Shown here piece by piece: positions 4,220 to 22,432 of a DNA stretch of 64,000 nt; the first letter of the stretch is position 1; the number at the start of each line of letters is the position of its first letter. The notes below the pieces were generated by a model, which did no database searches, was not told the origin of the DNA, and was given only the letters and a program-made list of their open reading frames with translations. Source of the DNA: Geminicoccaceae bacterium (GTDB lineage Bacteria > Pseudomonadota > Alphaproteobacteria > Geminicoccales > Geminicoccaceae); contig AP024683.1 of NCBI GenBank assembly GCA_025999455.1, forward strand, positions 689,501 to 753,500. The letters run 5' to 3'. Position numbers and translations under genes: made by a program.

Positions 4220-4656
4220 TGGGTGCCCTGAGCAGTCTCGCCACGCTCGGTCTGGAGCTCGCGCTCGCCCAGAAGGCGCGCGACGAGCAGCAGGACCAGC
4301 TCGAGGACCAGCGCCGACGCGAGATCCGCCGTCTGCGGATCGCCGAGGCCGAAGAACAGCGTCGCCAACAGGCCGCTCTCGCGCGCCGTCTCGCCCAGGA
4401 GCGGGCCCGGGCCGGTGCCATGGGGATCGCGAGCTCGGGTGGCTCGATCGATGCGGTGTTGCGCGGTCTCGAGGAGGAGAGCCGCGCCCTCCGCGACGCG
4501 CGACGGCGAGAAACCGGGGCGCGGATCGACGCGATTCGCGAGCGCTACGAGGCGCGCGGGCGGCGCAACCTCCTCGAAACCGCCGCGCATCTCGGTGAGA
4601 TCGGTTCCCGGGCTTGGAGCGACCTCGGTTCCTCGCGCCGTAGCCTGCTCGACTGA
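4219..4656 (+). CDS. Coiled-coil phage internal virion-type protein
   Basis: The 145-residue protein starts on the last base of the preceding stop (TGATG). Residues about 15-70 form a very charged Arg/Glu/Gln coiled coil (runs such as QDQLEDQRRREIRRLR). A short Gly/Ser-rich break follows (MGIASSGGSID), then a second charged helix. No catalytic motif is visible. Its size and position after tail tubular B recall the small internal virion protein of T7-like phages (gp14), which helps DNA ejection. That is an assignment by position and composition only. Confidence 0.55.
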   Translation: MGALSSLATLGLELALAQKARDEQQDQLEDQRRREIRRLRIAEAEEQRRQQAALARRLAQERARAGAMGIASSGGSIDAVLRGLEEESRALRDARRRETGARIDAIRERYEARGRRNLLETAAHLGEIGSRAWSDLGSSRRSLLD

Positions 4657-4657
4657 G

Positions 4658-6208
4658 ATGCGCGCGAGCCGACGTGCGGCGTTCGCGGGAAGGCGGGCCG
4701 GACCGGGCTCGGTCGCACCCGCCTTCCCACCGATGAATTTCATGCAATTCGTCATGGGCTGGAATTCTTCTCAAGGTCGTGAGACGCCGCGGCTCCATCT
4801 GGAAATTTGTCAATGGCTCGACGAATGCTGGCGCGCCAACGAGCGGCGGCTCCTGCTCCTGGTTTTCCGGAATTCCGGCAAATCCACGCTCGCCGCACTT
4901 TATTGCGCCTGGTTGTTGCGCGGCGATCCCGACCTGCGCATTCTCGTCCTCTCGGCCGACCATGCGCTCGCCACGAAGATGACGCGGAACGTGCGCGGCG
5001 TGCTCGAGCGGCATCCGGCGACGATCGGCCTGCTCGACGATCGTCCGGAATGTTGGGCGGCCGATCAGCTGACGGTGCGGCGACGGCGCGTCTCGCGCGA
5101 CCCTTCGCTCCTGGCGCGCGGCATTGGTGGCAACGTCACGGGCTGTCGGGCCGACGTCCTCGTCTGCGACGACGTCGAAGTCCCCAACACCGCGGATACC
5201 GAGGAAAAGAAGCGATCACTTCGGGAGCGGTTGCGCGAGTTGAGCTTCGTGTTGGTGCCGGACGGTCTCCAACTCTACATCGGCACCCCGCACAGCTACC
5301 ATTCGATCTACGCCGAGACACCGCGTCGCGAGCTCAACGAGTCGGAGCCGTTCCTCGCCGGTTTCCGTAGGCTGACGCTCCCGCTTCTGCGACCCACGGG
5401 CGAACAACGGTGGAAGGAGCGCTTCCCCGACTCGGTCGTCGATCGCCTCTTGGCCGAGGCCGGGCCCGCCAAGTTCCGAAGCCAGATGCAGCTTCTCCCG
5501 ACGCGGCCCGAGGACGTGCGCCTCGATCCCGACCGGCTCCTGCCTTACGACGCCCCTCTCTCGATCGTCTCCGTCCAGGGCCGCGACGAGCTCCGGATCG
5601 CCGAGCGGCGCATGGTCTCGGCGGCAGCCGCCTGGGATCCGGCCTATGGCCGCCCGGAGCGCGGCGATTCGAGCGTGGTGGCCGCCGTGTTCGTCGACGG
5701 CGAGGGCCATTATTGGCTCCATGCGATCGAATACCTCGTGCTCGGACCCGAGACGGAGGCCGAGGTGGACGATGCGACGCGGCTTTGCCGCGCGGTCGTC
5801 CGTTTCCTCGCGCGCCACCATCTCCCCGCGATCACGGTGGAGACGAACGGGATCGGCGCTTTCCTCCCGGCCTTGCTGCGTCACGAGCTGCGCCGGGCGG
5901 GGGTCGGTGCCACGGTGATCCAGCGGGCGAACGCGGTCCCCAAGGAGCGACGGATCCTCGAGGCGTTCGATCCCCTGTTGGCAGCTCGCCGCTTGCACGT
6001 CCACCGGAGCGTTCTCCTCACGCCCTTCTCGGACGAGATGCGCGAGTGGCGTCCGGGGCGGCGGTGCCGCGACGACGGCCTGGATGCCGTCGCGAGCTGC
6101 CTCCTCGCCGAGCCGGTCCGCCTGCCGCCCGTGGCGGTCCGTTCGTCCGTGCCGAGCTGGCGTGGTGCCGCGCGGAGCTTTCAGGCACCGACCGACTTCG
6201 TGCCGTGA
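4658..6208 (+). CDS. Phage terminase large subunit (packaging ATPase-nuclease)
   Basis: The protein of up to 516 residues would drive genome packaging and cut the concatemer. An atypical Walker A, FRNSGKST with Lys near residue 75, is followed by Walker B-like ADVLVCDDVE and the coupling motif IGTPHSY. The nuclease half shows acidic positions in AAWDPAYGR, ITVETNGIG and RDDGLDAVASC, so the active sites look intact. The start may be ATG 4658, one base after the previous stop, or ATG 4733 (MNFMQFVMGW), which better matches relatives. It is the last phage gene before the bacterial operon. In many tailed phages terminase precedes the head genes, so its place after the tail genes follows the T7 scheme. 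Confidence 0.85.
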   Translation: MRASRRAAFAGRRAGPGSVAPAFPPMNFMQFVMGWNSSQGRETPRLHLEICQWLDECWRANERRLLLLVFRNSGKSTLAALYCAWLLRGDPDLRILVLSADHALATKMTRNVRGVLERHPATIGLLDDRPECWAADQLTVRRRRVSRDPSLLARGIGGNVTGCRADVLVCDDVEVPNTADTEEKKRSLRERLRELSFVLVPDGLQLYIGTPHSYHSIYAETPRRELNESEPFLAGFRRLTLPLLRPTGEQRWKERFPDSVVDRLLAEAGPAKFRSQMQLLPTRPEDVRLDPDRLLPYDAPLSIVSVQGRDELRIAERRMVSAAAAWDPAYGRPERGDSSVVAAVFVDGEGHYWLHAIEYLVLGPETEAEVDDATRLCRAVVRFLARHHLPAITVETNGIGAFLPALLRHELRRAGVGATVIQRANAVPKERRILEAFDPLLAARRLHVHRSVLLTPFSDEMREWRPGRRCRDDGLDAVASCLLAEPVRLPPVAVRSSVPSWRGAARSFQAPTDFVP

Positions 6209-14573: not shown

Positions 14574-15598
14574 GGCGTCCACTCGAGCGTCAACAACAGG
14601 GTCCGCTGCAGCGGGCTGTAATTGTCGTCCGACACGAGCCAGACCCGCACGGGTCCGCCGGGCTCGACCGGTTCGACCGCGACCGCCTCGATATTGTCGA
14701 CCGTCGGCGAACCGCCGAGCCGGGCGAGCTCGACGAGCGGCTCGATGGGATCGGGAAGGTCGGCCGGGTCCCCGACCGGGGTCGCCGTAAGCCGCGCGGC
14801 GAACCCGGACAAGGCCGACAACCGACGCTCCACCACGTAGAGCCAGCCCTCGTGCCAAGCCGCGCCGGTCGGCGCGAAGCCCGCGGCGGATCGGTAGGTC
14901 AGGAACCGAGGCCCCCCGGGAGCGAGGAGGGCGGCCGGATGCAGGTCGCCTGGGCCGTGCTCGGCGATCGCGAGAACCGTGTCGCCCGGCAGGCCGGCCA
15001 AGGCTTCGATCCCGCGATTGGCAGGCAACCGGGTCAGTGGGGCGGGGAGTGGGCGAGGCTCGAGCTCGAGGGCCCGTCCGTTCGCCGGCTCGACACGCGG
15101 CAGCTGCGCGAACGCGTGGCGTCCCTCGAGGGCGATCAGGATCCGGCCGTCGTTCGAACGCGCCAGCTCCTCGGCATCGGGCGGCCGTCCCTCGACCCGT
15201 AAGGCTCGCACCTGCCACGATCCGCTTCGAAAGGGCGGTGCCGCACGCAGGTCCCGCTCTGCCGACCAGAGCCAACCGCGATCGCTCAACAAGAGGAACC
15301 GATCCCGGTCCACGAGCAGGCCCGAGAAGCCACCGAACCGCGCATCGGCCGAGCGGAGCAACCAGCCGGCTCCGATCGCGGCACTCGGATGGAGCCGCGC
15401 CGCCGAGGTCAACTCGCCGCTGTCGAGAGCTCGGACCCGAACGAGCGGGGCCCCCTCGCGGTCGGCGGCCGGTCCCGCACATGCCGGTAGGGTCCCGAGG
15501 ACGGCCGCGGCAACCAGGGCCCCGAGAAAGCGTCGGCACGAACGAAAAGGGCCCGCCTCGCGGCGGGCCCTCGGCATTCGAACGACGGTTCGGCTCAC
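14489..15598 (-). CDS. Esterase-like phytase-family lipoprotein
   Basis: The protein of up to 369 residues has a hydrophobic leader ending in a lipobox-like LPAC ([15 protein letters not shown]), so it is probably an envelope lipoprotein. The mature part reads as a beta-propeller-like esterase-like activity of phytase domain, with [39 protein letters not shown] and [12 protein letters not shown] 15598 overlaps the stop of the upstream Bax1-type gene (GTGA); ATG 15577 is an alternative. A terminator hairpin sits inside its first codons. The last 85 bases overlap rpmB on the opposite strand. Its substrate cannot be told from sequence. Confidence 0.75.
15545..15570 (-). terminator. Rho-independent terminator of the Bax1-type gene, inside the next gene
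   Basis: Reading the minus strand, a perfect 9-bp stem (arms 15570-15562 and 15557-15549) with a four-base loop is followed by TTTT (15548-15545). It lies 25 bases after the Bax1-type stop, within the leader-peptide codons of the downstream lipoprotein gene. Confidence 0.7.
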
Positions 15599-16314
15599 TC
15601 GCGGTTCTGGCCGAACAGCTGGAGCAGCATCATGAAGAGGTTGATGAAGTTCAGGTAGAGGCTGAGAGCGCCCATGATCGCCTGTTTGGCGACGAGCTCG
15701 CCGCTCGCGCTCTCGACGTACTCCTCCTTGAGCCGCTGCGTGTCCCAGGCGGTGAGGCCGGTGAACACGAGTACGCCGATGACGCTGATCGCGAATTGGA
15801 GGGCCGAGCTGCCGAGGAACAGATTGACGAGGCTCGCGATCACGATGCCGATCAGACCCATGATCAAGAACGAGCCGAACTGCGACAGATCACGCTTCGT
15901 CGTGTAGCCGTAGAGGCTGACCGCGCCGAAGGTCGCCGCCGTGATGAAGAAGACCCGCGCGATGCTCGTTCCAGTGAACACCAGGAAGATGCTCGCCATC
16001 GACAGGCCCATGACGATGGCGAACGCCCAGAACGCGAGCTGCGCGGCGCTCACGCTCATCCGGCTAACGCGCGCGCTCAAGAAGAACACGAAGGCGAGCG
16101 GCGCCAGCATGACGACCCACTTGAGGGGCGTGCCGAAGATCGCCGCCATCAGGGGCGGCGAAGTGGCAACCACGAACGCCGTGAGCCCGGTGATGGCGAG
16201 GCCCAGGCCCATGTAATTGTAAATGGCCAGCATGTAGCTGCGCAGGCCTTCGTCGATGCGCTCGATCGCGACACCGCGGGCTTGCGCCACCCTGGGGTCC
16301 ATTCGAAACGCCAT
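15595..16314 (-). CDS. Bax inhibitor-1/YccA-family membrane protein
   Basis: The 239-residue protein has seven hydrophobic segments and belongs to the Bax1-I family of inner-membrane proteins; bacterial members are linked to FtsH control (YccA) or calcium leak (BsYetJ). Family marks are YMGLGLAITGLTA, GYTTKRDLSQFG and the C-terminal LTAWDTQRLKE with its conserved Asp, then LYLNFINLFMMLLQLFG. ATG 16314 follows GGAGGG by nine bases. A hairpin terminator lies just past its stop. Confidence 0.93.
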   Translation of the reverse strand: MAFRMDPRVAQARGVAIERIDEGLRSYMLAIYNYMGLGLAITGLTAFVVATSPPLMAAIFGTPLKWVVMLAPLAFVFFLSARVSRMSVSAAQLAFWAFAIVMGLSMASIFLVFTGTSIARVFFITAATFGAVSLYGYTTKRDLSQFGSFLIMGLIGIVIASLVNLFLGSSALQFAISVIGVLVFTGLTAWDTQRLKEEYVESASGELVAKQAIMGALSLYLNFINLFMMLLQLFGQNRE

Positions 16315-16616: not shown

Positions 16617-19442
16617 ATGGCTCGATCCGCGAGAACCGGAAGTCGCCGGTCGGTCCGATCGAAAGAGGAGCCGCCGCGAACCGGCGGTCTCGCCGAAGCA
16701 CCGAGTCCCTTCCTCGGCGCCCCCGCCGGCTCCGGACCTTGCCGGCAAGTTTCACCCGCGGCACGGGAGCTCGTGATCCGCCACGAGAGCGGCGGCCGCG
16801 ACTATTATGAAAAGGTCCTCGAGAGCCGGCCACATTGGCCCGGCTACGCGTCGGGTCTGACGATCGGGTTCGGTTGGGATCTCGGCTACCACAGTCGGGC
16901 CGAGCTCGAGCGCGTCTGGCGGCCCTATCTCGGCCCGACCGCCACGGACCGCCTGGCGGCCGCCGTCGGCCTGCGTGCGGTCGAACCCGGCCGCGCCACC
17001 AAGGTCGTGCGCTTGAAGGCGCTGCGCCGCGCGCTCGCCGACATCCGGATACCCTGGGAGATCGCCGAAGCCGTTTTCGACCGCGAGACGCTCCCGGCCA
17101 CGGTCGCTCTGACCGAACGCGCCTTGCCGCACACCGACGAGCTGCCCGACGATTGCTTCGGTGCCCTCGTTTCCCTCGTTTTGAACCGGGGCGCGGGTGG
17201 ATTCGACCATCCGGCCCCCCGGTACGCGGAAATGCGGGCGATCAAGGCCTGCATGGCGGCCCGCGACTTCGATCGGATCCCGACCGAGCTCCGCAACATG
17301 GCACGGCTCTGGCCGGAGAGCTCGGGTCTCCGGACACGACGGGAGGAGGAGGCGGCGCTCTTCGAAAGCGGCCTCGCGTCGGGCGCTCTGCCGGGCCTCG
17401 TCGCGGCCCGGGCCGGAGCGGCGACCACCGCCGCTCCGCCGCTGCCGGTCTTGGACGTCGCGCCGGACCGAGTGGACCTGCGCGATCTTCTCTATCGTCC
17501 GCCCCTCGTCCCTCTGCCCGAGCAATGGCCGCCGCCGGACCTCGTCGCGAAACATCTCGAAACCTATCGTGCCGACGGTATGATCCTCGATCAGGGCCGG
17601 GAAGGTGCATGCACCGGCTACGGCCTCGCCGCTTGCATCAACTTCCTCTACTGGCGCCGGTGGGTCGCGGCCGGACGGCCGGAGGATCGGAGGCCGGCTC
17701 GGGTCAGCCCGAAAATGCTCTACGAGCTCGCCCGGCTCTACGACGAGTGGCCGGGCGAGGACTACGAGGGCTCCTCCTGCCGCGGTGCCATGAAGGGTTG
17801 GCACAAGCACGGCGCTTGTGCGGAGGCGCTCTGGCCCAAGGAGGGTCGGCCGGATCCCCGCTGGGCCGAGGACGCGGCCGAGCGCCCGCTCGGCGCCTAT
17901 TACCGCATCGACCGCAGCCAGATCGGTGATTTGCAGGCGGCGATCCACGAAGTCGGGGCCGTCTACGTCTCGGCCAAGGTACACGCGGGATGGCGCCTCG
18001 GGCCGGCCCGCGAGCTGCCGCGGATCCCCTGGAGCGGGCAGCGTCTGGAAGGCGGCCACGCCTTCGCGCTCGTGGGCTACGAACGACGCGGGTTCATCGT
18101 CCAGAACTCTTGGGGAGAGGGCTGGGGCTATCACGGCTTCGCCCTGCTCGGCTACGACGATTGGCTCGCCAACGGCATGGACGCCTGGGTCGCGGTCACC
18201 GGAGCGCCGATCGCGCGGCGTGATGCCGTCGGGCTCGCCCCCGCAGCGATCGGCCGATCCTTGCAGGTCCGCGCGGGTCTCGCCGGTCGCGGGCCCGCCC
18301 TCGACGATCCGCGCTGGGACGAGGCCCGTGCCCGGCGGCACACCCTCGTCCTCGGCAACGACGGCCGACCGCTCCGGCGCCAGCCGGATGCGTCCGATCC
18401 GGCGGACGAGGTGGACCTCCTTTGCCGACGGCTACCGGGCCCGGGGCTCAGCGAGCTCGGCAGCCGCAAGCTCCTCCTCTACGCGCACGGCGGCCTCAAC
18501 GACGAGGAAGCGGCGGTTCGACGCGCCCAGATCCTGGGACCGCTCATGCTCCGCAACGGGATCTGGCCGATCTTCGTGGCGTGGCGGTCGGGCCTGGGCG
18601 AAACGCTGTTCGCGCAAATCGAGGATTTGGGTCGCAAGATCCTCGACGGGCTCGGGCTGCGCACGGGGCGGACCGCCCTCGAGCGGTTCGAACCCACCCT
18701 CGGCGAGATCCGAGATCTGTCGATCGAATGGCTGGCCGCCCACGGCATCCCTCGCGCGCTTTGGGCCGAGATGAAAGAGAACGCGACGGCCGCCTCCGAA
18801 CCGGAGGCCGGTCTGACGCTGGCCGCCGCCGCGTTCGAGCGTTTGCGTGCCGAGCTCCCCGAGCTCGAGCTGCATCTGGCGGGTCATTCCGCGGGCTCGA
18901 TCCTGCTCGGCCGCTTTTCGTCGCCGCTTGCCGACCGGGGCCTTTCCGTCGCGAGCACCAATCTCTTGGCGCCGGCTTGCACCATGGGCTTCGCCGCCCG
19001 AACTTTCGGGCAGACCGCCGGTCGTGGTCGGCGCAAGGTGTTCGACAAGCGGCGGTTCGCGATCTGGGTGCTGAGCGATCGGAACGAGCGCCGCGACACC
19101 GTAGGTCCGTACGGCAAATCGCTCCTCTACCTCGTGAGCCGTGCGCTCGAACGAACCCGCCGCGCGCCGCTTCTCGGTCTCGAAGCGGCATGGGATCCGA
19201 GCGTCGCACCCGAACGTGAGCCCGTCGACCTCGACGATCGAGGACGCCTCGAATGGCTCGAGCTCTGGGCCGACGGGCCGCCACCCGAGGTTCTGCGCGA
19301 GCCGCAGGTTAGCACGGGCCCCACCGCGATCCCGGCCGGGCACGGTGCGTTCGACAACAGTGTCGAGGTCGTCAACGCGATCCTGCGCAACGTCCTCGGC
19401 GAGGAGCCGACGGTCCCGGCGACCGATCTAACGGGCTTCTGA
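16617..19442 (+). CDS. Lysozyme-like + papain-like peptidase + alpha/beta hydrolase fusion
   Basis: This 941-residue protein joins three hydrolase domains. Residues about 46-260 are lysozyme-like, with IRHESGG (Glu57) and SGLTIGFGWDLGY. Residues about 290-540 are papain-like: Gln326 and Cys332 in ILDQGREGACTGYG, His481 in GGHAFALVGY, and Asn497 in QNSWGEGWG, so the catalytic set is complete. Residues about 590-930 are an alpha/beta hydrolase, with YAHGGLN as a possible oxyanion strand, nucleophile Ser758 in GHSAG and a candidate His909 in GHGAFDN. The N-terminus is basic and Ser/Pro-rich, with no Sec leader or membrane segment. ATG 16617 has GGGGGAGG ahead. A secreted antibacterial or effector toxin is plausible; no secretion or immunity gene is adjacent. 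Confidence 0.82.
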   Translation: MARSARTGSRRSVRSKEEPPRTGGLAEAPSPFLGAPAGSGPCRQVSPAARELVIRHESGGRDYYEKVLESRPHWPGYASGLTIGFGWDLGYHSRAELERVWRPYLGPTATDRLAAAVGLRAVEPGRATKVVRLKALRRALADIRIPWEIAEAVFDRETLPATVALTERALPHTDELPDDCFGALVSLVLNRGAGGFDHPAPRYAEMRAIKACMAARDFDRIPTELRNMARLWPESSGLRTRREEEAALFESGLASGALPGLVAARAGAATTAAPPLPVLDVAPDRVDLRDLLYRPPLVPLPEQWPPPDLVAKHLETYRADGMILDQGREGACTGYGLAACINFLYWRRWVAAGRPEDRRPARVSPKMLYELARLYDEWPGEDYEGSSCRGAMKGWHKHGACAEALWPKEGRPDPRWAEDAAERPLGAYYRIDRSQIGDLQAAIHEVGAVYVSAKVHAGWRLGPARELPRIPWSGQRLEGGHAFALVGYERRGFIVQNSWGEGWGYHGFALLGYDDWLANGMDAWVAVTGAPIARRDAVGLAPAAIGRSLQVRAGLAGRGPALDDPRWDEARARRHTLVLGNDGRPLRRQPDASDPADEVDLLCRRLPGPGLSELGSRKLLLYAHGGLNDEEAAVRRAQILGPLMLRNGIWPIFVAWRSGLGETLFAQIEDLGRKILDGLGLRTGRTALERFEPTLGEIRDLSIEWLAAHGIPRALWAEMKENATAASEPEAGLTLAAAAFERLRAELPELELHLAGHSAGSILLGRFSSPLADRGLSVASTNLLAPACTMGFAARTFGQTAGRGRRKVFDKRRFAIWVLSDRNERRDTVGPYGKSLLYLVSRALERTRRAPLLGLEAAWDPSVAPEREPVDLDDRGRLEWLELWADGPPPEVLREPQVSTGPTAIPAGHGAFDNSVEVVNAILRNVLGEEPTVPATDLTGF

Positions 19443-21092
19443 CCCGCTCGCAGCGGCGAGCGCGCGGGCCCGCTCGCGCAGCTCGAACTTTTGGATCTTG
19501 CCCGTCGAGGTCTTGGGCAAGGGTCCGAAGACCACGGTCTTGGGTGCTTTGTAATGCGCCATGTGCTCGCGGCACCAGCGGATGATCTCGGCTTCGTCGA
19601 CCGCCGGGGCGTCCGGCTTCAGCGTCACGAACGCGCAGGGTGTCTCACCCCAGAACGGATCCGGTTTGGCCACGACGGCCGCTTCCATGACGGCCGGGTG
19701 ACGGTAGAGGACTTCTTCCACCTCGAGCGAGCTGATGTTCTCGCCGCCGCTGATGATGATGTCCTTCGAGCGGTCCTTGACCTCGACGTAGCCGTCCGGG
19801 TGGACGACCGCGAGATCGCCCGTGTGGTACCAGCCGCCGCGGAACGCCTCGGCCGTGGCCGTGGGGTTCTTGAGATAGCCCTTCATCACCGTGTTGCCAC
19901 GCAACAAGAGCTCGCCCATGGTGCGAGCGTCCGCGGGCACCGGCTCGAGCGTCTCGGGGTCGGCCACCATCAGCTCCGACATCGTCGGGTAGCGGACCCC
20001 CTGCCGGGCGATCAGCGCCGCCCGCCGGCGCGAATCGAGCTCGTCCCAGGAAGGTTGCTCGACGCAGACGGTGGCGGGGCCGTAGACCTCGGTGAGGCCG
20101 TAGAGGTGCACGACGTGGAAACCCATCGCGGCCATCGCCTCGATGACCGCCGAGGGCGGGGCGGCACCGCCCGTGCCGACGACGACGCGCTGGGGGAAAC
20201 GCCGGCGCACCTCGGGCGGGCTGTGGATCAGCATGGTGAGGACGACGGGCGCCGCGCAGAGGTGGGTCACACCTTCTTCCGCGACGAGGCGGAAGATCTC
20301 GGCCGGGTCGACCTTGCGCAGGCAGACATGCGTCCCGCCGGCGGCCGTGACACCCCAGGTGTAGGTCCACCCGTTGCAGTGGAACATCGGCAAGGTCCAG
20401 AGATAGACCGACCGTGGCGACAGGCCGAGCACGAGGGCGTTACCGAGCGCGTTCAAGAACGCGCCGCGATGATGGTAGACGACGCCCTTGGGATTGCCCG
20501 TCGTCCCCGAGGTGTAGCAGAGGGAGAGGGCATCCCATTCGTCGGCCGGCTCGCTCGGGGTGAAGCTCGGATCGCCCTCGGCGAGAAGAGCCTCGTAGTC
20601 GAGCCACCCCGTGGGCTCGCCCGGGGCGTGAGGGTCGACGATCTCGACGAGTTCCGGCGCGCGCGCGAGCCTCGACACGGCCGCACGCGCGAGCGGGGCG
20701 AGCTCCCGGTCGACCAGGAACAACTTCGCTTCGCCGTGTTCGAGGATGAACGCGATCGTCGCCGCGTCGAGACGAGTGTTGAGCGCGTTGAGGACCGCTC
20801 CCGCCATCGGGATCCCGTAATGGGCCTCGAGCATGGCCGGGGTGTTGGGGCACAGGATCGCCACCGTGTCGCCGCGGCCGATACCGCGTCGCACCAGAGC
20901 CGATGCGAGCCGTCGACAGCGCGCCGCCACCTCGCCCCAGCTCCACCGCCGATCCCCGTGGACGACACCGACGCGGTCGCGGAACACGTCGCCCGCTCGC
21001 AACAGGAAATCGATCGGCGTGAGCGGTCGAAAATTGGCCGGATTCCGGTCGAGCGCCACGTCGAAGATGGTCGAGGCTCGTGCTCCACTCAT
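19428..21092 (-). CDS. Acyl-CoA synthetase (AMP-dependent, medium/long-chain)
   Basis: The 554-residue ANL-family enzyme activates a carboxylic acid to its CoA thioester via an acyl-adenylate. The P-loop YTSGTTGNPKGV, the YGLTEVYGP motif, GWYHTGDLA and KDRSKDIIISGGENI are intact, and PKTSTGKIQK supplies the adenylation lysine. The subgroup (LPMFHCNGW) resembles acyl-CoA synthetases of fatty or methylmercaptopropionate type; substrate is undetermined. ATG 21092 has GGGAGG ahead. It converges on the fusion gene with a 15-base overlap and has a close paralogue at 32836-34482. Confidence 0.93.
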   Translation of the reverse strand: MSGARASTIFDVALDRNPANFRPLTPIDFLLRAGDVFRDRVGVVHGDRRWSWGEVAARCRRLASALVRRGIGRGDTVAILCPNTPAMLEAHYGIPMAGAVLNALNTRLDAATIAFILEHGEAKLFLVDRELAPLARAAVSRLARAPELVEIVDPHAPGEPTGWLDYEALLAEGDPSFTPSEPADEWDALSLCYTSGTTGNPKGVVYHHRGAFLNALGNALVLGLSPRSVYLWTLPMFHCNGWTYTWGVTAAGGTHVCLRKVDPAEIFRLVAEEGVTHLCAAPVVLTMLIHSPPEVRRRFPQRVVVGTGGAAPPSAVIEAMAAMGFHVVHLYGLTEVYGPATVCVEQPSWDELDSRRRAALIARQGVRYPTMSELMVADPETLEPVPADARTMGELLLRGNTVMKGYLKNPTATAEAFRGGWYHTGDLAVVHPDGYVEVKDRSKDIIISGGENISSLEVEEVLYRHPAVMEAAVVAKPDPFWGETPCAFVTLKPDAPAVDEAEIIRWCREHMAHYKAPKTVVFGPLPKTSTGKIQKFELRERARALAAASGSEAR

Positions 21093-21127
21093 CCTGCGCC
21101 TCCCTGGCCGCCTTTCGGCGGGAGCTT

Positions 21128-22378
21128 TTAGGCCACCCTCCGACCGTCCGGAAGATCGCCCCGAAGTTGGTTGTCGCGGGGCACCACGGCGGGTCTCGAC
21201 GCCGTTTCGACCGAGGCGGCCGAAGTCGTCAACACGAGGAGCAGGCCGACCGCGTAGTAGATGCTGTTGAAATAGTTCTGGAACGCCGATTGCGCCAACA
21301 TGTCGGCCGTGATCGCCAACATCGTCGCGCGGCGCAGCGGGCGGTCGTCGGCCCGGGCGGCCCGCATCGCGAGGCGGACGAGCTCGAAAAGGAGCAGGCC
21401 AACGAACAAGAGCCCGGGCAACCCCGCCTCGATGTAGAAGCGGAGGGGCTCGTTGTGCGGCCATTCCAGCCAACGTGTGCCGTCGAGCGCCGGCCGCCCC
21501 TCCGCGAGCCGCTCGCGCACGACCCCGAAGCCGAGGCCCAAGGGCTCGTCGAGGGCGAGCGCGAGCCAGTGGAGCTGACTGACCGCACGCCCGGACGACC
21601 AATCTTCCGTGCTGCCGGGCAACCAGCGCTCGAGGAAATCGTCGCTGACCAGGATCGTGTAGACGGCGAGCAGACCGAGCGCGCCCGCGATCGCGGGTAG
21701 GAGCCGCACGAAGCGGTCGCCGGGCCGCTCCGCCGTCGCCACGTCGAGGACGAGGTGGATCGCACAAGTGACGAGGGCGGTGCGCGTGCCCGTGAGAAGC
21801 ACCATCGCTCCCGCCGTGCCGGCGAGGCAGAGGTGGCCGGCGGCCAGGACGGGCTGCGCCGAGGTTCGGACTTTGGCCAGGGTCGCGAGCAGGTAGATGG
21901 TGCAGAGGCCGGCGTGGGCGACCAACGAGCCCGTGAAATCGACCCGCGTGAGATCGGGACGACCGCGGCGCAAGAAATCCGGGACGACGAAAACGGCGAT
22001 CAGAGCCGTCGCCACCACGTAGAGCGTGAGCAGACGCCAGACGAGTTCGCTCGGATCCCGCCCGTCGAGCGCGCGCGCGACGTTCGGTGCGAACAAAAAG
22101 AGCGGGACGACGAGCGCCACCTTGTAGTCGATGGGCTCGACCTCGCCTCGAACGACGTCGGCGAGAAGGATCGGGACGAGCAGGAGCGCCAAGAGCGCCG
22201 GTGTGCGGGCGTCGATCGGCTCGAGGCGCGGCTCGCGGAGGAGGGCGGCGAGGACGAGCCCCCCATAAGCCGCGAGGAAGGCGAGGATCCGGACCCGATC
22301 GAGGCTCCAGAGCCCGGCGGCTTCGGACGACACGCAGGCGAAACCGAAGAGGATCGCGAAGAGGAGCCGAACGGGCAC
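21128..22378 (-). CDS. O-antigen ligase/polymerase-family membrane protein
   Basis: The 416-residue protein has around ten membrane helices and a large periplasmic loop. The motif EWPHNEPLRFYIEAGLPG contains the HN pair typical of WaaL/Wzy-type O-antigen ligases. The start is GTG 22378 with only a weak ribosome site. It would attach or polymerise surface sugar chains in the periplasm. It is divergent from, and only 54 bases from, a three-gene polysaccharide cluster, which supports the role. Whether it is ligase or polymerase cannot be told. Confidence 0.82.
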   Translation of the reverse strand: MPVRLLFAILFGFACVSSEAAGLWSLDRVRILAFLAAYGGLVLAALLREPRLEPIDARTPALLALLLVPILLADVVRGEVEPIDYKVALVVPLFLFAPNVARALDGRDPSELVWRLLTLYVVATALIAVFVVPDFLRRGRPDLTRVDFTGSLVAHAGLCTIYLLATLAKVRTSAQPVLAAGHLCLAGTAGAMVLLTGTRTALVTCAIHLVLDVATAERPGDRFVRLLPAIAGALGLLAVYTILVSDDFLERWLPGSTEDWSSGRAVSQLHWLALALDEPLGLGFGVVRERLAEGRPALDGTRWLEWPHNEPLRFYIEAGLPGLLFVGLLLFELVRLAMRAARADDRPLRRATMLAITADMLAQSAFQNYFNSIYYAVGLLLVLTTSAASVETASRPAVVPRDNQLRGDLPDGRRVA

Positions 22379-22432
22379 GAGCCGGAGCCGACGGTGTTGC
22401 GCCGAATTTCAATTTATGGTTGATATCGACCC

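Follow-up and report, generated by a model that had tools for sequence, protein, structure and literature searches.

What might a bacterium do with three different hydrolases on one polypeptide chain? The question is raised by a gene in a stretch of 64,000 nucleotides from a Geminicoccaceae bacterium (assembly GCA_025999455.1, contig AP024683.1, positions 689,501 to 753,500, forward strand; hereafter the window), whose 941-residue product is predicted to contain a muramidase, a papain-like peptidase and an alpha/beta hydrolase. A preliminary description of the sequence had proposed that this protein is a toxin delivered by a secretion or phage-derived device, and knew of no other protein with this trio of enzymes. 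We report here that the three domains are well founded, that the last two form the core of a widespread protein family to which unrelated wall hydrolases have been coupled in separate branches, and that the protein may, as a tentative preference, be regarded as a latent cytosolic effector dismantling the cell from within.

A single gene encodes three predicted hydrolases

The 941-residue frame is a genuine single gene, neither a chance frame nor an assembly join. It is uninterrupted, its G+C content by codon position (0.74/0.55/0.82 in 16617-19442) is coding-like, and orthologues spanning the three parts in one frame, with about 69-76% identity, are present in three other genomes of the genus (G001, G002 and G003), which bears out the single frame of the preliminary description. 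The genome of the window (G000) is a single 3.76 Mb contig whose closest named relatives are Geminicoccaceae metagenome-assembled genomes (MAGs). All six same-genus genomes have the gene and two copies are damaged: in G004 (L021) the frame is broken between the first part and the remainder, and in G005 the copy is badly broken by several stops. Among four genus members, the ratio of non-synonymous to synonymous substitution rates (dN/dS) was 0.15-0.19 for the muramidase, 0.07-0.18 for the papain and 0.19-0.27 for the hydrolase domain, values that are rough because dS is about 0.7-1.5; in the linkers it was higher or saturated. Judged from these alignments, each of the three domains is under purifying selection.

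In a Pfam scan of the protein only PF00112 scored above its cut-off, by a margin of 0.2 bits, and NCBIfam gave no match anywhere. Residues 278-531 have the catalytic set of the C1A peptidases and a papain fold. Gln326, Cys332, His481 and Asn497 stand where the preliminary description had placed them and are invariant in 60/60 aligned relatives, and the same holds for Ser758 of the GHSAG motif in the third domain. The nearest solved relative of the papain domain, both by sequence and by structure, is xylellain (3ois), a short bacterial papain-family peptidase. The match extends into the segment preceding the catalytic domain; the solved xylellain chain differs in being a papain domain only.

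Residues 575-927 are an alpha/beta hydrolase by motif, with an oxyanion-type GGL at 625-627, and the strand-helix order of the structural model in our judgement fits that fold, with a predicted local distance difference test score (pLDDT) mostly >90 in this region of the full-length model. Residues 625-627, 757-760, 824, 827 and 909 are invariant in 60/60 aligned sequences, while the first Gly of GHSAG is not, and they are also invariant in a set of 28 rows that includes a caspase-linked relative, L009. No Pfam model scored above its cut-off on the region, the nearest being Thioesterase for the window protein and DUF900 for its relatives, and fold searches with the full protein returned match lists filled by the papain part. 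A lipid as the substrate of this domain is our guess.

Residues 46-252 are a predicted GH24/pesticin-like muramidase with a T4-lysozyme-type fold. Glu57, Thr82, Gly86 and Asp88 are invariant in 60/60 aligned muramidase domains, 57 of which come from viral contigs, the other TIGxG positions being nearly so. This region is poorly modelled in the full-length model; modelled separately, the domain has a mean pLDDT of 95.1. The top five Foldseek rows for the separate model are muramidases, a peptidoglycan hydrolase or endolysins, with probability 1.00, template modelling (TM) scores of 0.46-0.72 by target, and E values of only 0.002-0.010, none <=0.001. GH24 muramidases, endolysins and T4 lysozyme are among its best fold matches, and the PDB matches of a sequence profile of this part, at E 0.015 and worse, were all lysozymes, muramidases or endolysins; pesticin is neither among the 50 fold matches shown nor among those profile matches. 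According to the excerpted text of PMC9927483, the catalytic residues of pesticin are E178, T201 and D207, and the spacing of six from T201 to D207 equals that from Thr82 to Asp88. The domain has the fold type and the Glu-Thr-Asp set in common with GH24/pesticin-like muramidases and phage endolysins, but differs from them in its fusion to two further enzymes and in falling below the cut-off of PF00959 (12.8 bits vs 22.3). The invariant residues and fold matches uphold the lysozyme-like domain, with Glu57, of the preliminary description. Its sequence matches are phage endolysins and plasmid-borne genes with 30-42% identity, one of them annotated as a pesticin-C-terminus-like muramidase, and relatives of the domain are encoded in 378 viral-contig stretches.

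The polypeptide thus unites, as first described, three distinct hydrolases, each with the expected active-site residues, and has no recognisable leader. No Sec-type leader was seen in the window protein, whose highest 9-residue Kyte-Doolittle mean within residues 1-45 is 0.73, and one doubtful case was seen among 82 open reading frames (ORFs) of the family, judged by the hydrophobicity of the longest frames. This bears on the idea that the protein digests dead or neighbouring cells for food outside its producer, having left it either through lysis or through some unknown export route that needs no leader. The domain set would cover wall, protein and perhaps lipid, and xylellain is the nearest solved papain relative; a cytosolic enzyme lacking a leader would, however, serve feeding poorly, and we consider this role improbable. 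At the other terminus, a DL[ST]GF-type ending, possibly a targeting or regulatory tail, was found with a loose pattern in 19 of the 82 ORFs, including the window protein, in the window's half of the family. In the other half, a number of ORFs end near SxSSLRxxR.

Table 1 Features of the gene and its immediate neighbours in the window.
Feature	Position	Strand	Basis or remark
Whole gene	16617..19442	+	Uninterrupted ATG frame, 941 codons plus stop
Residues 1-45, basic low-confidence N-terminus without hydrophobic leader	16617..16751	+	Low pLDDT, poor conservation
Predicted GH24/pesticin-like muramidase domain, residues 46-252	16752..17372	+	Invariant residues, model, fold matches, viral relatives
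Glu57; Thr82; Asp88	16785-16787; 16860-16862; 16878-16880	+	Muramidase catalytic candidates
Residues 253-277, variable linker	17373..17447	+	High dN; pLDDT <50 at 257-272
Xylellain-like papain (C1) domain, residues 278-531	17448..18209	+	Conserved pro-like segment PDxxDxRD
Gln326; Cys332; His481; Asn497	17592-17594; 17610-17612; 18057-18059; 18105-18107	+	Papain catalytic set
Alpha/beta hydrolase domain (by motif), residues 575-927	18339..19397	+	HGGL 624-627, GHSAG elbow, distal His
Ser758; His909	18888-18890; 19341-19343	+	Hydrolase active-site residues; acid candidates Glu824, Asp827
C-terminal tail, end TDLTGF	19398..19439	+	Similar ending elsewhere in family
Bax inhibitor-1 (BI-1) family membrane protein, divergent neighbour	15595..16314	-	PF01027 E 7e-65
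AMP-binding enzyme gene, convergent neighbour	19428..21131	-	PF00501 in frame 19428-22412

A widespread papain-hydrolase core has been coupled to different wall hydrolases

The preliminary description had called for a search for the same domain order in other genomes. Such a search, over one genome per species (84,980 species), found 173 relatives, and the best 80 of these were examined. Because two of its six patterns derive from the muramidase part, it is biased towards loci that encode a muramidase. Most relatives match from about residue 278 to near the end, that is, they are two-domain papain-hydrolase proteins, mostly of 630-800 residues, of which Pfam names the papain part only. This core is a widespread and patchy family, apparently without leaders. 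It has hosts in Pseudomonadota, Verrucomicrobiota, Planctomycetota, Bacteroidota, Campylobacterota, Acidobacteriota and others, the core rows coming, as judged by record title, from 11 phylum-level groups and many of them from MAGs. Among 387 genomes sampled evenly across the window's class, 11 had the hydrolase domain, one of these being a weak match without support from a second search. The family is apparently unnamed so far; no description of the trio or of the core was found in the open-licence literature searched, which is weak evidence.

Two kinds of wall hydrolase precede the core in these loci. An N-terminal muramidase is present in 4/80 (L019-L022, of which L022 is partial at a contig end, starting from about residue 128), in the window's genus and in G024, of another genus. 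An N-terminal GH19 domain is present in 12/80, L062 and L063 being near copies. PF00182 scored above its cut-off in five of these (L052, L053, L067, L074 and L091), whereas L044 fell short of it (16.9 bits vs 25.5); the six other assignments rest on our own profile from L052, L064, L067, L074 and L093, which recovers L044 at E 5e-26. In L044, a PG_binding_1 domain precedes GH19. A third arrangement is seen in G007, where L009 370-3273 (-) encodes Amidase_2, a relative of the hydrolase domain and a caspase in one protein, in a different order. Start calls are partly doubtful for the N-terminal extensions of L053, L065, L082 and L091. Separately, L051 and L065 have a stretch of about 90 residues in common N-terminal to the core (33% identity), with no wall hydrolase there.

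A tree of 80 core sequences was computed by a quick search with SH-aLRT supports, leaving out L063, L035 (whose core lies over two frames) and duplicate records of the same genes. On this tree the presence of wall hydrolases amounts to three changes, the muramidase in Geminicoccaceae and GH19 in two other places. A single clade of the 11 distinct GH19 rows, a group named post hoc from the tree, was rejected (p-AU 1.9e-8); L044 lies on a long branch. The muramidases of the G024 copies are 54-60% identical to that of the window, whereas the 57 aligned viral rows reach at most 50%, and this greater closeness fits a single capture of the muramidase within the family. As to whether the gene as a whole is phage-encoded, this was rejected: the 13 matches in phage records cover either the muramidase part (2) or the papain part (11) singly. 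One viral-labelled contig from IMG/VR (L099) encodes a papain-hydrolase core with 41% identity.

The trio is not unique, in that the combination of wall hydrolase, protease and alpha/beta hydrolase recurs with other wall hydrolases. The recurrence of muramidase-core and GH19-core fusions in relatives points to a recurrent cell-dismantling tool and away from a one-off oddity, and unrelated wall hydrolases coupled to one core in separate branches, together with the caspase and NucA-type nuclease genes adjoining the core in a few genomes, offer a testable case for pre-assembled whole-cell dismantling enzymes. Such one-protein machines, in which a single core would have received a different wall hydrolase on several occasions, could also be self-contained suicide-lysis enzymes of the cytosol, in which a lipid-attacking hydrolase would substitute for a phage holin, the captured phage-type muramidase would act as the endolysin, and the papain domain would both activate the protein and destroy the proteome. 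We regard this possibility as doubtful.

Delivery by a secretion device is not borne out

That the protein is a delivered toxin stood up in part: an anti-cell role is plausible from the neighbours of its relatives, while a secretion or phage-derived device is unsupported. A search of 17 window frames yielded no gene of a type VI secretion system (T6SS), an extracellular contractile injection system (eCIS) or a phage tail. The protein is neither fused to nor beside VgrG, PAAR or Hcp, and its Pfam scan gave no VgrG or PAAR domain match. Across the six same-genus genomes, VipB and VgrG were both found in two: G000, where VipB is split into two pieces read in different frames, and G002, where VipB has one stop. 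In G000 about 380 kb separate VgrG from the gene. Neither VipB nor VgrG matched in the four others (G001, G003, G004 and G005; 95-99% complete), all of which have the gene, G001 and G003 as a single frame. The sheath model PF04984, which may miss eCIS sheaths, matched in 0/6. T6SS or eCIS delivery had been the first reading and was demoted on these results for VipB, VgrG and the sheath. Outside the window, G000 has a 951-residue caspase-domain frame with a hydrophobic N-terminus (L199, G000:C1:321216-325068) immediately upstream of its VgrG match; this caspase may be T6SS cargo or a neighbour.

An antibacterial T6SS effector would enter neighbouring cells and cut the victim's wall, protein and lipid. 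One class of T6SS effectors is described, in the excerpts of PMC12135965, as containing GH19 and pesticin-like lysozyme domains and as able to hold two toxic domains, and the window's own genome has both VipB and VgrG. In 30 hand-picked genomes (every one with a distinct GH19 locus, 11 in number, 3 with a muramidase locus and 16 others), VipB was present in 7/11 GH19-fusion, 1/3 muramidase-fusion and 3/16 other genomes. A T6SS role thus stays conceivable chiefly for the GH19 branch, and no such system is needed to account for the window gene; the difference between fusion and other genomes is, however, confounded with taxonomy, and 4/11 GH19-fusion genomes, some of them MAGs, gave no VipB match. 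No recognised immunity gene lies beside the window gene, its neighbours being the BI-1 and AMP-binding genes, though an immunity protein of an unfamiliar kind may be present. On balance, with T6SS markers absent from four genomes that have the gene, an injected effector is unlikely.

Neighbouring genes and the case for a latent effector

Of the two flanking genes, the BI-1 gene is retained at L019, L020 and L003 and was not found at L021, and the AMP-binding gene is retained at all four. These kept neighbours and the dN/dS values indicate a settled chromosomal gene in this genus, no recent arrival. The adjacency of BI-1 is probably due to chance, though notable given the role proposed here. 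Elsewhere in the window, a 597-residue frame (4415-6208, +) has a weak terminase RNaseH-like match below the Pfam cut-off. The stable syntenic position, the ordinary neighbours and the purifying selection on all three domains would also suit a housekeeping enzyme: papain and hydrolase would act on some substrate of the cell, and the muramidase would contribute wall binding or recycling. Against this, the gene is patchy across the class, the muramidase retains its catalytic residues fully, beyond what a mere binding groove would need, and some relatives have caspase and trypsin-NucA neighbours; a housekeeping role is, in our estimate, the least probable of the explanations weighed here.

Clustering of the ORFs around the 80 loci gave no family-wide operon partner; many clusters were backgrounds common to near relatives (e.g. 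Steroidobacter) or apparent anti-sense ORFs. It did reveal a caspase gene at most 25 bases upstream of the core in at least 5/80 loci, all in one small clade of four Campylobacterota plus an unassigned MAG, and the reading of adjacent ORFs revealed a trypsin-NucA fusion gene at most 40 bases downstream in at least 3/80 (L028, L034 and L040). Both counts are lower bounds because several loci end at contig ends. A further locus, L195 (G009:C66:1-20000), has core-gene pieces in two frames together with genes for trypsin-NucA, a trypsin with TPR-S, another trypsin, Amidase_2 with PG_binding_1, and a weak GDSL match. In the even sample, eight loci lie outside the genus. Two have a GDSL-lipase-like gene directly upstream (L294 above the Pfam cut-off, L295 below), and a third is preceded by trypsin and peroxidase genes, the animal-haem-peroxidase-domain gene (L298 6816-8714, +) standing between the trypsin gene and the papain-hydrolase gene. 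In the other five, whose neighbours were not family-searched, no trypsin, NucA, caspase or GH19 profile match was seen.

The explanation that we prefer, tentatively, is that of a latent effector in the cytosol, the protein being a lineage-specific elaboration of the widespread leaderless papain-alpha/beta-hydrolase family. It would stay latent in the cytosol until activation, upon which the papain domain would cleave proteins of the cell and perhaps also the linkers of its own chain. Membrane lipids or other esters would be attacked by the alpha/beta hydrolase, the phage-type muramidase would then gain access to the cell wall and cut it, and an infected or stressed cell would be lysed and degraded. 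In its favour are the invariant active-site residues, the lack of a leader, the selection on each domain, the attachment of several wall hydrolases to one core, the patchy spread and, for a minority of core genes, a caspase, trypsin-NucA or lipase-like gene alongside; enzyme activity, substrates, trigger and the producing cell as target are all inferred here. Several observations weigh against it. The gene stands alone in the window's genus with no linked sensor seen, Endonuclease_NS (PF01223) is found in 0/6 same-genus genomes, and the gene is syntenic in the genus and has no PADLOC match, which is not the usual picture for mobile defence genes. Caspase or trypsin-NucA neighbours were found in only 8/80 loci, some of which reach contig ends, and two copies on plasmids lie among ordinary annotated genes, except for one hypothetical protein that lacks a Pfam match. 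The route of the muramidase from cytosol to wall is unproven. If correct, the latent-effector explanation would make the window gene a model in which the dismantling of bacterial cells could be studied through one gene, with no multi-gene signalling system involved.

Comparison with known systems

Several anti-cell enzymes per polypeptide are also found in two-enzyme T6SS effectors, namely TseP and WHIX effectors such as Awe1. Those described in the excerpts of PMC12135965 differ in that they mainly target peptidoglycan and are T6SS-linked, a link not found for the window protein.

Conflict systems offer two further parallels. In the portions of Kaur et al. 2020 (eLife, PMC7159879) that were consulted, caspases are accompanied by alpha/beta hydrolases in some systems, and such hydrolases are listed, in excerpts of a later paper (PMC8195603), among effectors acting on membrane lipids. 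The caspase and alpha/beta-hydrolase pairs of the MoxR-vWA (VMAP) systems (PMC7159879, in part) resemble the window protein in pairing a cysteine peptidase with an alpha/beta hydrolase, and L009 joins a caspase to a relative of the window's hydrolase domain; they differ in that papain replaces the caspase in the window protein. No MoxR, vWA or VMAP partners were seen beside the gene, the genome not having been searched for them by family.

The same portions of Kaur et al. 2020 describe mostly alphaproteobacterial NucA-trypsin systems (System 3), whose predicted effectors include lysozyme and papain-like domains. That both domains were already predicted effectors of one conflict system further weakens the novelty of the trio. 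System 3 and the family are alike in these two effector types and in the trypsin-NucA gene adjoining 3/80 core relatives. They differ in that the window's genus has no NucA match, the three enzymes are fused, and an alpha/beta hydrolase is not named for System 3 in those portions, nor was the papain-hydrolase core seen named there; the window gene also lacks the mark of System 3, Endonuclease_NS together with trypsin in one protein or operon. Coupled effectors of System 3 have an EAD1 domain; Pfam has an EAD1 model, and the window protein gave no EAD match in Pfam up to E 10. By the tests made, the window protein would not count as a member of a NucA-trypsin system, but it appears to resemble the predicted effectors of such systems.

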